Assembly: GCA_910575005.1 (NCBI GenBank) | Contig: CAJTCL010000009.1 | Coordinates: 62,001-126,000 of the forward strand | DNA from: Lachnospiraceae bacterium | GTDB lineage: Bacteria > Bacillota > Clostridia > Lachnospirales > Lachnospiraceae | Direction of reading: 5' to 3' | DNA: 64,000 nt | Shown here: positions 34,248 through 42,942 of the stretch, piece after piece | Layout of the letters: every line of letters begins with the position of its first letter | How positions within the stretch are numbered: position 1 is the stretch's first letter | Program-made: the position numbers and the translations under genes | Notes under the pieces: model-generated | What the model was told of the DNA's origin: nothing | The model's input: the letters and a program-made list of their open reading frames with translations, nothing else | Database searches by the model: none

Positions 34248-34877
34248 TTATCCTCTGTAATCGAGCATTGACATCCATTCGTCTGGAAAGAACTGTTCCA
34301 GCAACGCCTGCTGTGTGTCTGAATTCTTCAAAGAGCTGCTCTGCCCTTCCTGATTGCCACCCTGCCGCCATACTTTTGAAGATTCCTGCTCCTCAAGAGT
34401 CTGCTTGAACGTCTTTTTCTTACTATCCTCAACCGCCCCTTTGACTGCTTCCCCGAGCAGCATTCCAAACTGTTCATTTTTCTTACTGACTTGCATCACC
34501 ATCTGATAAGCCTGCTGTATCACTGCCTGCTGTTGTTCCTTGGTGGAAGCCTGAGACAGAGCATGTTTGATCCGTTCGCCCTCTTGCCTGGCAAGCTCCG
34601 CCATCTGTGCAAGCTTAGGATCCACCTGCATCAAAAAACGTTTTTCTTCCGGCGACACAGGTGCCCCTCTTGCAATCCGTTTGGCAATCTCCAAGGCTTT
34701 CTTGACATCTTTCTGACTGTCCTCCACTTCCTTAGGTTCTAAGAGCTGCTGCAAGACAGATTTCTTTTCTTTAATCTGCTCTACACCTGTCACATTACGG
34801 ATTACTTGCGATAAATTAACAGAATTCACCTGTGCCTGTCTCTTTGTCTCATCAATTGGAAACATGATATTAATCAT
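34248..34877 (-). CDS. Uncharacterised cytoplasmic helical protein
   Basis: A 209-residue protein from ATG 34877 after AGGGAGGG. It is hydrophilic, Gln/Glu/Lys-rich and helical with likely coiled-coil at about 45-150 (IAKRIARGAPVSPEEKRFLM). No signal peptide, no motif known to me. In style it resembles the uncharacterised proteins of the LytTR operon at 39.7-42 kb. It precedes nothing in an operon; lgt lies upstream, 86 bases away, in the same direction. Confidence 0.7.
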   Translation of the reverse strand: MINIMFPIDETKRQAQVNSVNLSQVIRNVTGVEQIKEKKSVLQQLLEPKEVEDSQKDVKKALEIAKRIARGAPVSPEEKRFLMQVDPKLAQMAELARQEGERIKHALSQASTKEQQQAVIQQAYQMVMQVSKKNEQFGMLLGEAVKGAVEDSKKKTFKQTLEEQESSKVWRQGGNQEGQSSSLKNSDTQQALLEQFFPDEWMSMLDYRG

Positions 34878-34963
34878 CCAAGCCCTCCCTTCGTACCATA
34901 TCATTCCATTTACATGATATATCGGCACGAAGGGCAAATCTATATATACTATACAAGGAATTT

Positions 34964-39559: not shown

Positions 39560-39604
39560 GATACATTTTTTTAAGATAAAATTTTATCCTTATCTGGTAT
39601 CATA

Positions 39605-39654
39605 CAAGAGCCATTGTCCTATGATAAATCATTATCATAAAACAATGGCTCTTG
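39605..39654. terminator. Inverted repeat after the LytTR operon
   Basis: CAAGAGCCATTGT (39605-39617) and ACAATGGCTCTTG (39642-39654) form a perfect 13-bp stem with an inner TATGAT/ATCATA helix. It lies 70 bases downstream of the last operon gene. There is no clear T tract, so termination is likely but not certain. Confidence 0.55.
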
Positions 39655-39723
39655 GTACAACGAAACAACTGTTGTTAGATTATACTATATCCCTATCTTT
39701 CAAAAACTCAATGACCAAAAAAA

Positions 39724-40197
39724 TTATTTTAGCTCTCCATTGGCCATCCCTTCTGCTATGCCATCCACATTTAAGTTTTCCCCACCAGAACCTTCGACTG
39801 GTTCTTGTGCCTGGGAATGACTGTCATTCTGCATCTTGGTAGCCTCTGACAATTTCAAACTCATAGTCGTCTCCATCCCTGCAACCATAACTTTAATCAA
39901 AAGTACTCTGGAGCCATCTGGCCTCACTAAAATCTGTGTATCTGTCTTACTTTCCTCCTCTGTCGAATCCTCCTTATGTTTGAAAGACTCTAAATCAGAA
40001 ATTTCTTCCTCTAAAGCAGCCTGCCCCCTGAGGGATTCCACTTGATCCTGTACTTTATTTTGCTTTACAATTCTCTCTTCCAGCTTGGCCACATCCTGAA
40101 ATGGTTTGTTGTGGACAGCCGATTTTGAACAAAGCTTATTTTTCCATCTATCAGTATTTCCATTGAATTGGTTGAAATAAATTCCACTATTTGTCAT
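39724..40197 (-). CDS. Uncharacterised protein, last gene of LytTR operon
   Basis: A 157-residue acidic protein with AGGAG site. A helical middle (DVAKLEERIVKQNKVQDQV) is followed by a small conserved-looking beta patch, ILVRPDGSRVLLIKVMVAGMETT, and an acidic disordered tail. No transmembrane segment or signal. It begins 20 bases after the pseudo-receiver gene. I do not recognise the family. Confidence 0.7.
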   Translation of the reverse strand: MTNSGIYFNQFNGNTDRWKNKLCSKSAVHNKPFQDVAKLEERIVKQNKVQDQVESLRGQAALEEEISDLESFKHKEDSTEEESKTDTQILVRPDGSRVLLIKVMVAGMETTMSLKLSEATKMQNDSHSQAQEPVEGSGGENLNVDGIAEGMANGELK

Positions 40198-40217
40198 CTT
40201 ATTCTCCTGTTCTTTTC

Positions 40218-40589
40218 TCAGAAATATCCCAGTATCTTGCGGCGTTCTGCCTCCAGTATGGCTCGCTCAAAGACCTCCAAGAAAGCATCCTCCTCCACTG
40301 GTTCCTGCAGAAAATGAGGTGCTGTAAGATCTGCCTCATTGTATATCTCTGCCGCTGTCATTACGACAAATACGGCGTCTTCACGGAATCTTCTTAATTG
40401 TAATGGCTGTAATTCTTCCCCTTCTGTCAGACTATGTTTCCAAAATACAATATCAAAGGGTTGTCCTGTTCCCAGAAGCTCTGTCCCTGTGACACTGACT
40501 ACACGGCAGTCTGAACGTTGTTTCTTAATCAGATTTCTGATTTTATCTTGGGTATAGGCATCTGCCTCTACAATCGCAATATCAACCAT
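40218..40589 (-). CDS. Degenerate receiver-like protein, no DNA-binding domain
   Basis: A 123-residue protein from ATG 40589 after GAGGTG. It follows the receiver fold and aligns with the N-terminal part of the LytTR regulator at 42048: PHFLQEPVEEDAFLEVFERAI against YLLKPVDEERFAEVFGRAI. However, the acidic pocket is IVEAD instead of CDNE, and the region of the phosphorylated Asp reads FDIVFWKHS with no Asp where LLDIK has it. It is probably a non-phosphorylated partner protein. Confidence 0.75.
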   Translation of the reverse strand: MVDIAIVEADAYTQDKIRNLIKKQRSDCRVVSVTGTELLGTGQPFDIVFWKHSLTEGEELQPLQLRRFREDAVFVVMTAAEIYNEADLTAPHFLQEPVEEDAFLEVFERAILEAERRKILGYF

Positions 40590-40624
40590 AATACACCTCA
40601 AAAATGGCTACTTTCCATGAAAGT

Positions 40625-41359
40625 TTACGTAAACACTAGTTTGTAATCCTGAAACCTATTTACCCTCTGCCGCAGCTGTTCCAGATTTTTGTCTGAAATA
40701 GCCTGCATATATGCTTTTTTAGTCTTTTGTTCTATAGTCTGTGGACTCTCTGAAGATTTTTCACCTCCAAAAGCCTCCTCTATCTGCGCCATCACTTTCT
40801 TAGAAGAGGCAATAAAGGTAGTCTTTAAATCATAAGCATACTTAAGCTCTTCCAATCTGTCCTCCACAGTTTCTTCTCTTCGTGCCCCTGTCACCTCATC
40901 TATCACATAAGTTGTATCTCTGTCACTCCTCGCAAATTCATCCACAATACGGTCATACACCACCTGATAGGCTTTGGCCCTGAGCGTGGCAGCACTCTCC
41001 AGTGAAGCTCCTGTGACCTGGCTGCCCCATACAGCACGCTGTTGTTCTATCACCTCATCCATTTCACTCAGGAAATTGTTAGTGTAATCCATAGTTTTCG
41101 TGTGAAGCTGTTTATCCAACTCTTCTAAATTTGCCTTAATGTCAATTCTTTGGTTCCATCCATTCTCATTCAAATAGTTTCGCATATCCTTGGCACTCTC
41201 TAAGCCTGATTGAGAAAATGTAATTTTATCTTTTGCAAATTGTTGAACCTTAGGCTGTCGATGCTGCTCTTGTTCTTTCGCCCGTGCTGCCAATTCCTCA
41301 TATGTGGGAACATGTTTGTTGATCTTTGGAATCTCTGTCCTTCCGGCATAGATTTTCAT
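40625..41359 (-). CDS. Uncharacterised helical protein of LytTR operon
   Basis: A 244-residue protein from ATG 41359 after AGGTGAG. Mainly helical, with an N-terminal KIYAGRTEIPKINKH segment, no signal peptide and no membrane segment. The N-terminal extended stretch and the helical remainder recall flagellar/secretion accessory proteins in general style only. It lies 10 bases after the FliD-like gene and 35 bases before the pseudo-receiver gene. Confidence 0.7.
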   Translation of the reverse strand: MKIYAGRTEIPKINKHVPTYEELAARAKEQEQHRQPKVQQFAKDKITFSQSGLESAKDMRNYLNENGWNQRIDIKANLEELDKQLHTKTMDYTNNFLSEMDEVIEQQRAVWGSQVTGASLESAATLRAKAYQVVYDRIVDEFARSDRDTTYVIDEVTGARREETVEDRLEELKYAYDLKTTFIASSKKVMAQIEEAFGGEKSSESPQTIEQKTKKAYMQAISDKNLEQLRQRVNRFQDYKLVFT

Positions 41360-41369
41360 ACACACTCAC

Positions 41370-42023
41370 CTATCCCCAGAAATTATATTTATTGGCCTCG
41401 GTAAAATAACTGTTGCCCCAAGCATTATACTGATTGGCAACACTGCCAGCATTTACTTTGGCATTGTCAGATACGCGATCTGCCAAAAATGATATTTTGG
41501 AAGTAAACTCTCCTCCTAGAACCTTTTCTAAGGTATCCACATCTGCTTGCCTTAATTTGTCCTGATCTAGTGTTAAGCTTCCATCTTTTCCTTGTGTGAT
41601 ACCAATACTTTCTAATGCTTCTTTCTGATTAGAAACAAGACCTGTAAATGTCTTTCTGTAATATTCATTTAATGGTGCAGATTTGGAAGTATCCTTCAAT
41701 GATTTTATGGTACTGTTATAATATTTCACCAACTTTTCTGCTTGATCACAGATTGCCTTGGTATCACCACTTGTTTTGGCATCTTCATACAACTTCTTAG
41801 CACTTAGCGCATCTGCAGACTGCTGTAAATCCTCAGCTGATTCCTGCAGATTCTGATAACTCCTCTTTTGTATCTTAGATGCTGTATTGGTTTTATCCAA
41901 ATTACTAAGCAGATTTTTCCTTTGGGTGCTCTTATTACCTATAACATCTAACAGCGACATACTATTGATCGGCAGTCCTGCCTTTCTCATAGTTGCCTGA
42001 AACATTTGTGTTGAAATTCTCAT
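41370..42023 (-). CDS. Small flagellin/FliD-like helical protein
   Basis: A 217-residue protein starting MRISTQMFQATMRKAGL, an opening seen in FlgL-type proteins, and carrying IGITQGKDGSLTLDQDKL, a pattern like the C-terminal region of the FliD cap (DKDGxLSLDxxKL). Between them are helices with few aromatic residues; the end is Tyr/Asn-rich (NAWGNSYFTEANKYNFWG). There are no other flagellar genes in the window. It may be an extracellular filament-type or secreted protein of unknown role. AAGGAGG site present. Confidence 0.7.
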   Translation of the reverse strand: MRISTQMFQATMRKAGLPINSMSLLDVIGNKSTQRKNLLSNLDKTNTASKIQKRSYQNLQESAEDLQQSADALSAKKLYEDAKTSGDTKAICDQAEKLVKYYNSTIKSLKDTSKSAPLNEYYRKTFTGLVSNQKEALESIGITQGKDGSLTLDQDKLRQADVDTLEKVLGGEFTSKISFLADRVSDNAKVNAGSVANQYNAWGNSYFTEANKYNFWG

Positions 42024-42047
42024 ATTTTGCCCTCCTTTTGCTGATAA

Positions 42048-42758
42048 CTACCCTTCTCTTGCCACATATTCCAAATACGCCTTAACAAAATCTGCATATT
42101 TATATTTAGAGATCAAAAGTTTCTCTCCATTGCTAATTGATACTGACGATTTGTTATATCCATCCACAAAGGAAAGATTGACCAGATAACCCTTATGGAT
42201 CCGAAAAAATTGTCCATACAATTCCTCCTCCAAGGCTCCAAGCTTTGCATAATACTCCAGCTTTTCGCCCTCCATATGGAGCACGACTTTATGTCCCTGG
42301 CTTTCCACATAATAAATACTGTCCAGAGAAATTGCTCTGCTCGCCCCTGCATATTGTATCACCAGCGGCGGTTTCTGCTGTCGATCTTCGGAAAGTATCT
42401 GTCTTATGGCTCGCCCAAACACCTCGGCAAAGCGTTCCTCATCCACTGGCTTGAGCAGATACTGAAATGCATCCACATCAAAGGCGTCATAGACATACTC
42501 CTTATAAGCGGTGATGAAAATAATTAGAGGCTGTCTAACATATCGCCCGTTTCGTATTTCTCTTGCCAGCTTAAGACCATCTCCTGGTACCTGCAGCTTG
42601 ATATCCAGAAGTACCAGATCAAATTCTTGATTCTCTGCCAGATATTGTTCACTGGTCGAATACTCTCTAATCTCACACTCTACATCCTGTTTTGTCACAA
42701 GTGCAAAAAGATAGTTTTGCATGTTCTTTTCATTGTCACATATTGCAATTCTTATCAT
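42048..42758 (-). CDS. LytTR-family response regulator
   Basis: A 236-residue regulator from ATG 42758 after AGAGGAG. Receiver domain with AICDNEK, phosphorylated Asp in VLLDIKL (about 56) and Lys in YLLKPVDEE; LytTR DNA-binding domain from about 140 (SIYYVESQGHKVVLH, FFRIHKGYLVNLSFV). No cognate histidine kinase lies nearby. First gene of a tight five-gene operon, and presumably its regulator. Confidence 0.9.
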   Translation of the reverse strand: MIRIAICDNEKNMQNYLFALVTKQDVECEIREYSTSEQYLAENQEFDLVLLDIKLQVPGDGLKLAREIRNGRYVRQPLIIFITAYKEYVYDAFDVDAFQYLLKPVDEERFAEVFGRAIRQILSEDRQQKPPLVIQYAGASRAISLDSIYYVESQGHKVVLHMEGEKLEYYAKLGALEEELYGQFFRIHKGYLVNLSFVDGYNKSSVSISNGEKLLISKYKYADFVKAYLEYVAREG

Positions 42759-42942
42759 ATTCTCCTCTGCTTTCCTAATGTTTATCGGAAACCAGAAATT
42801 ATTTTTTAACATACACCGCACAAATTGACACTTTTATGACGTAAGTGGAAATTATTCATCGGCAAGGCAAAAGAATGCGTGTAGCGAGTGCTACGACAAT
42901 TGATTACAACGTAGCAGATGGAAATTTAGGCAAGTAAAAACG

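Follow-up and report, generated by a model that had tools for sequence, protein, structure and literature searches.

The filament cap protein FliD (HAP2) and the regulators of the LytTR family are the closest described counterparts of the locus reported here. A Pseudomonas aeruginosa FliD engineered without its domains D2 and D3 still supports flagella (PMC8533109). Autoregulatory LytTR repeats in the literature are mostly spaced by 12 bp and often stand 10 bp ahead of the -35 element (PMC6193735), and AgrA binds near -60 (PMC4227749). We analyzed a stretch of 64,000 nucleotides (the window) from the 4.29-Mb genome of a gut bacterium of the Lachnospiraceae (assembly GCA_910575005.1, contig CAJTCL010000009.1, positions 62,001 to 126,000 of the forward strand), in which five open reading frames (ORFs), all on the minus strand (42758-39724), begin with a LytTR regulator followed by a FliD-like protein. 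From sequence comparison and structural modelling, we consider it rather likely that they are an accessory to the late flagellar regulon, transcribed as one operon under an autoregulatory switch, with a leg-only FliD as the main effector. A first-pass annotation of the window had listed the same genes, and the gaps of 24, 10, 35, and 20 bases that it gave between them were confirmed:

42048-42758, minus strand: LytTR response regulator, 236 amino acids (Pfam LytTR 66.4 bits, Response_reg 53.9 bits; receiver Asp, Thr, and Lys present)
41370-42023, minus strand: FliD-like protein, 217 amino acids, modelled as the D1 leg of FliD with the D2-D3 head missing (headless FliD)
40625-41359, minus strand: helical protein, 244 amino acids, of an unnamed family (no Pfam match at E <= 0.01)
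40218-40589, minus strand: degenerate receiver without DNA-binding domain, 123 amino acids (30% identity to the adjacent LytTR receiver)
39724-40197, minus strand: acidic protein, 157 amino acids (with a segment common to small proteins of related loci)

Since two related genomes (G027, with the order conserved, and G015, where the 157-residue homologue is detected by BLAST only) keep all five genes, and since the FliD-like and LytTR genes remain linked even where the flanking genes differ, the set is more than a chance arrangement, which supports the earlier view of one conserved gene set. Of 56 loci, 27 have a LytTR gene within ~3 kb upstream of the FliD-like gene; in six more it lies on the downstream side. 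Co-occurrence and fold, both proposed earlier as tests, thus speak for a LytTR plus FliD-like module; co-occurrence of all five genes does not extend as far, the 244-residue protein being kept in part of the family and the degenerate receiver (below, pseudo-receiver) and the 157-residue protein in a few close relatives.

The predicted headless FliD protein

In a structural comparison of the predicted 217-residue model, the ten best-ranked matches were FliD or flagellar cap complexes. The predicted FliD D1 fold covers residues 34-204, and the matches span FliD from about residue 24-43 to 411-423 with 143-168 aligned residues, the D2-D3 head not being present. The Pfam family PF07195 (FliD_C) reaches 21.8 bits in the window protein versus a curated cut-off of 25.4; across the family it matches 37 of 53 members at E <= 0.01, with members other than the window protein reaching E 2e-8. 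When this genome's FliD was used as a single sequence, the similarity to the family was weak (25 columns, probability 7.7%). The relation to FliD is therefore drawn from the predicted fold together with the wider FliD profiles, and both agree with the first-pass suggestion of a FliD relative. The termini and the core are strongly conserved across the family. Taken as modelled, the protein is predicted to be a FliD paralogue that has kept only the leg, domain D1 with short ends.

It shares with the FliD filament cap the D1 fold (as predicted), a FliD_C-like segment, co-occurrence with flagella, and a sigma-28-type promoter. Unlike FliD, it has no D2-D3 head, half the usual length, and no FliD_N match, and its gene is a neighbour of a LytTR regulator gene instead of standing in the flagellar cluster, in a genome that also encodes a FliD of 758 residues. 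Like the P. aeruginosa deletion protein (PMC8533109), it is a leg-only FliD; unlike that construct, which replaced FliD in the laboratory, it occurs naturally, as a paralogue in a genome with an intact FliD. Its first residues (MRIST/MRVT) look, by eye, like those of this genome's FlgL (HAP3); however, in contrast to FlgL and flagellin, Flagellin_N was matched neither in the window protein nor among the families listed for the 53 members.

Some results count against the FliD assignment. FliD_N was not found in the 217-residue protein at E <= 1, nor was it listed for the 53 members at E <= 0.01. Foldseek alone gave no match at E <= 0.001, with cap-complex chains ranking second and fifth among designed bundles and ClyA, and the model is poor at residues 1-44 and 197-217.

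As a separate observation, the same genome encodes on contig C14 (L067:9758-10981) a 407-residue protein with two FliD_C-like stretches (PF07195, 55 bits) and a CCGATAT just upstream; no flagellar gene was recognised around it.

Promoter, regulator, and link to flagella

Two elements were identified upstream of the LytTR start:

42782-42808, minus strand: sigma-28 promoter, an exact match (TAAA at 42808-42805, 16 nt, CCGATAA at 42788-42782)
42818-42848, minus strand: probable LytTR operator, a degenerate direct repeat (9-mers at 42849-42841 and 42828-42820; period 21 bp), 11 bp upstream of the -35 element

For Butyrivibrio, the sigma-28 consensus is given as TAAA(N16-17)MCGATAa (PMC3720852). 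Exact sites number 18 genome-wide, versus 5 for the pattern read backwards. Four of the 18 stand shortly before a gene start, at flagellin, flaG (where the site also overlaps a small antisense ORF), flgM, and the LytTR-FliD-like operon, the flagellar families being confirmed. The other 14 comprise nine sites inside ORFs (four of these in one repetitive ORF), four between ORFs without a close downstream start, and one near the start of a 393-residue ORF of the window. Among the LytTR-led loci, a CCGATAW box near the start was found in 20 of 27 when a fixed window was used, and in 23 of 27 after over-long first frames, inside which the box lies in L079, L081, and L087, had been corrected; control genes of the same loci, which were not re-read likewise, carry it in 6 of 140 cases (p 7e-19, relatedness uncorrected). 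These 27 loci include L089 and L104, which have a short LytTR protein only. L092, whose promoter has both elements, falls outside the 56-locus box count because the gene caller missed its anchor. By promoter match, the operon apparently belongs to the sigma-28 (FliA/SigD) regulon.

In the named collection, full-length relatives of the FliD-like gene were found in 57 loci; the carriers are Lachnospiraceae and include Petralouisia muris as well as records under the names Acetatifactor, Roseburia, Agathobacter, Butyrivibrio, Eubacterium, and Blautia. In the genus, such relatives, counted as strong matches, are present in 25 of 29 genomes. Within a set of 160 Lachnospiraceae genomes, a short FliD-like frame is present in 61 of 84 genomes with FlhA versus 0 of 76 without it (p 4e-25). 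The A2 profile used here also finds true FliD; from the 66 genomes matched, five with long frames only were dropped, and the 61 kept, read by eye, have an open frame under 350 amino acids. In a smaller set of 61 genomes, FlhA accompanies any match in 34 of 35 cases, and the exception (G009) is only 63% complete.

The first-pass annotation had pointed to a surface filament or signalling system independent of flagella, having seen no flagellar genes nearby. That absence holds for the immediate neighbourhood, which is the point in favour of such a system, and fails for the genome, in which a late flagellar gene cluster with the 758-residue FliD (matching FliD_N) lies elsewhere; the set found away from the operon comprises flagellins, FliD, two FlgK, FlgL, FlaG, FlgM, FlgN, FliS, FliW, and FlhA. 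On the grounds of the sigma-28 promoter, the FliD fold, and the presence of FlhA in all 61 genomes with the short frame, the lone FlhA-less carrier of the smaller set being the incomplete G009, we rejected this alternative and hold it to be very improbable.

The operator block is the most conserved stretch upstream of the promoter in seven loci of the window clade. Relatives also carry direct repeats with a period of 21 bp that abut the -35 element, in clade-specific sequences (the CCAGTCACAACA, ATTCACGTAA, and TTTTGTGC types). Over 25 promoters, 11-mer identity at period 21 has a mean best value of 8.04; shuffles give 5.13 (z 11.7), and 140 regions upstream of other genes 5.50. Scores of at least 8 were reached by 16/25 promoters versus 10/140 controls. 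For 12 less related promoters picked by hand the mean is 8.5, with L089 at 3. A second repeat peak is found at period 30 (6.20, z 5.1; controls 5.16). The window-clade pattern has one match per genome in 7/7 genomes, each at the operon. The other clade patterns have a single match in 12 of 14 genomes (in G023 there is an additional one elsewhere, and G025 lacks any), and the patterns read backwards produced one match in total. Because the clade-specific operator versions occur almost only at the operon, the LytTR gene probably encodes a dedicated autoregulator, as far as can be judged from sequence. As in LytTR systems (PMC6193735) and for AgrA (PMC4227749), direct repeats with a period of ~21 bp lie, across the family, just upstream of the -35 element of the regulator's own operon; unlike there, the promoter is of the sigma-28 type and the regulator has a receiver. 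In contrast to a LytTR regulatory system, no membrane inhibitor is adjacent, the next gene being the FliD-like one.

Several points weigh against the interpretation of this region as a joint LytTR and sigma-28 promoter of a flagellar operon. Related sequences count many times in the operator and promoter tests, and the operator patterns were built from loci that they then match, so that their informative part is the scarcity of other matches. The repeat is weak in the window clade itself, with best period-21 scores of 5-9 of 11 (9 in L078) and 3 in L089, and the score of 7 of the window promoter falls outside the operator block. The group of L082, L084, and L085, which has no upstream LytTR gene, scores 6-7 and is thus indistinguishable from the weaker LytTR-led promoters; it keeps the sigma-28 box, which is absent in the neighbouring L083. 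Loci without an upstream LytTR carry the CCGATAW box in only 6 of 29 cases, and among 12 further FliD-like genes, it lies upstream of the called start in two and, in L165, upstream of the conserved start. Finally, the correlation with FlhA is partly expected for any FliD relative.

A GHKL kinase, labelled by similarity to one kinase, accompanies LytTR in 15 of the 32 LytTR-linked loci and is absent near the operon in the window clade, which sets the latter apart from the AgrA/AgrC two-component system. The statement that there is no histidine kinase was hence correct at the window locus and not for the family. An orphan copy of this kinase in the genome was considered and rejected, no close copy being present (best 26% identity, E 4e-38). 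The phosphorylation site is Glu in three of the seven window-clade LytTR proteins (L077, L078, and L079) and Asp in the window protein. The phosphorylated Asp is missing in 5 of 16 readable LytTR proteins without a labelled nearby kinase (three Glu, one Gly, one Asn) versus 0 of 15 with one (p 0.04), in a comparison where related or identical proteins enter as separate counts and contig ends truncate some loci; it gives no more than a hint that kinase loss and loss of the phosphorylated Asp are associated. In a different arrangement, at L057:6568-9406 and its relatives, ABC transporter genes (by eye), a stand-alone LytTR gene, and a DUF3021 gene adjoin the headless FliD operon, a neighbourhood that resembles a LytTR regulatory system.

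Partner proteins and neighbouring features

The family of the 244-residue protein stands beside the FliD-like gene in 11 loci of the window subgroup, with distant copies in five others, some of them duplicates; no convincing fold match was found for it (model mean pLDDT, the predicted local distance difference test, 63). Hidden Markov model comparison showed that the 157-residue protein shares its segment with proteins of L130 (2e-10) and L131 (3e-9). The pseudo-receiver was labelled in 3 of 58 loci, and in alignment all copies lack the phosphorylated Asp, the window copy being also without the Lys, so its earlier description as degenerate stands. Its proposed descent from the adjacent LytTR gene was not upheld: the BLAST similarity to the neighbouring receiver is real (E 9e-12), yet the tree, in which receivers were cut by alignment columns, groups all three pseudo-receivers with the regulator of L115 (support 96/73), apart from the window-clade LytTR proteins.

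That the leg protein is encoded alongside a regulator and a pseudo-receiver would fit a cytoplasmic regulator, in which the leg domain competes with FliD for a chaperone or FlhA and so reports the export state to LytTR. In one Lachnospiraceae genome, a FliD-like gene also stands beside a helix-turn-helix (HTH) protein fused to the FlhA cytoplasmic domain; this pair, however, is one of six fusion loci examined, and we hold this explanation to be improbable. The fusions themselves join HTH_3 (Cro/XRE-type) to the FlhA domain at L157:9605-10507, where the gene follows a FliD-like one, L158:8334-9134, L159:8070-8810, and L162:8638-9429 (Pfam), and by eye also in L160 and L163. They could be regulators reading flagellar export substrates, and no description was found in the accessible parts of the literature on FlhA with HTH.

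In other genera, the headless FliD gene has arrays of small-protein genes around it that include DUF6033 and DUF3879 members. Such arrays surround headless FliD genes in L094, L100, L107, L115, and L130, and several of their families have, by eye, a V-x-I-S-like motif. The window operon resembles these arrays in that DUF6033 and DUF3879 genes adjoin headless FliD genes in some relatives, and departs from them in that its 244- and 157-residue proteins match neither family. Our search found no literature naming DUF6033 or DUF3879. A further DUF6033-like gene (L154:8917-9645), besides the one named below, has a LytTR regulator gene as its neighbour. The arrays bear on flagellum-dependent secretion, by which the headless FliD would be an export-competent scaffold and, together with small soluble proteins, would act outside the cell and not on the filament. 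The small proteins are diverse and without visible signal peptides (by eye), and a DUF6033 gene of the same genome (contig C7, L153:8199-8933) has a CCGATAT box ~50 nt upstream. Nevertheless, the conserved termini and core of the FliD-like family speak for a fixed binding partner more than for a free effector, and no effector domain was recognised in the scanned proteins, so that we regard secretion as somewhat unlikely.

Other features of the window that touch on the operon are:

34248-34877, minus strand: 209-amino-acid protein, possibly a further member of the sigma-28 regulon (GCCGATAT ~41 nt upstream)
34919-34926, minus strand: sigma-28-type -10 element of the 209-residue protein gene, with a weak -35 (sequence match)
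39605-39655, minus strand: strong hairpin ~70 nt past the last stop codon, a possible transcript end (by folding energy)

The GCCGATAT element is also present in L047 and L048, and this speaks for the link between the 209-residue protein and the operon that had been suspected; the protein has no Pfam match at E <= 0.01. The hairpin (-37.6 kcal/mol, z -7.5, region 39590-39680) has no clear U-tract and is absent from the terminator scan listing; it could be a terminator or a repeat element. A phage origin was rejected, as PHROGs gave no match at E <= 0.01 for the 217-, 157-, and 209-residue proteins and one weak match, of unknown function, for the 244-residue one. A defence origin was rejected likewise, the only two PADLOC matches being weak and both to the 217-residue protein (0.0006 and 0.002). 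In the accessible parts of the literature searched (Roseburia and sigma-28 regulons, FliD with LytTR, FliD paralogues, LytTR with FliA), no description of the operon was found.

Proposed mechanism and significance

Completion of the hook and basal body, together with the exit of FlgM, frees sigma-28. In an accessory operon of the late regulon, sigma-28 RNA polymerase would read the five genes once this stage is complete, and LytTR, the product of the first gene, would bind the repeat abutting the -35 element and raise its own transcription, if it acts as an activator. Full expression would then need both flagellar completion and active LytTR. Where relatives encode a GHKL kinase beside LytTR, the signal would come from this kinase. 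In the window clade, whose locus no longer has it, the regulator may be responding either to a different kinase or to the amount of LytTR itself. The headless FliD would leave the cell through the flagellar type III apparatus as a late substrate. At the tip or joint of the filament it may then serve as an alternative cap subunit, or compete with the regular one, and so tune how the filament grows, with the small partner proteins either co-exported or serving as its chaperones. More tentatively, and as a possibility that we hold with clear reservation, flagellated Lachnospiraceae might use this two-key promoter (sigma-28 plus the LytTR autoregulator) as a bistable switch that exchanges or terminates the cap and that lets a set of small, unstudied proteins out through the flagellar export gate.

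The first-pass observation is thus confirmed and its interpretation was half right: the conserved module is real, but it is flagellar. It combines variants of two known kinds: a FliD paralogue of which, by prediction, the leg remains, and a probable LytTR operator coupled to a sigma-28 promoter. FliD has been thought of as a head plus a leg, and here a family appears to have kept the leg alone, next to a complete FliD. Gut commensal flagellins can be pro-inflammatory (PMC3720852), and the combination of LytTR operator and sigma-28 promoter would let an outside signal gate late flagellar genes in gut commensals. The operon also offers an entry point to several families of unknown function whose genes stand beside headless FliD genes.

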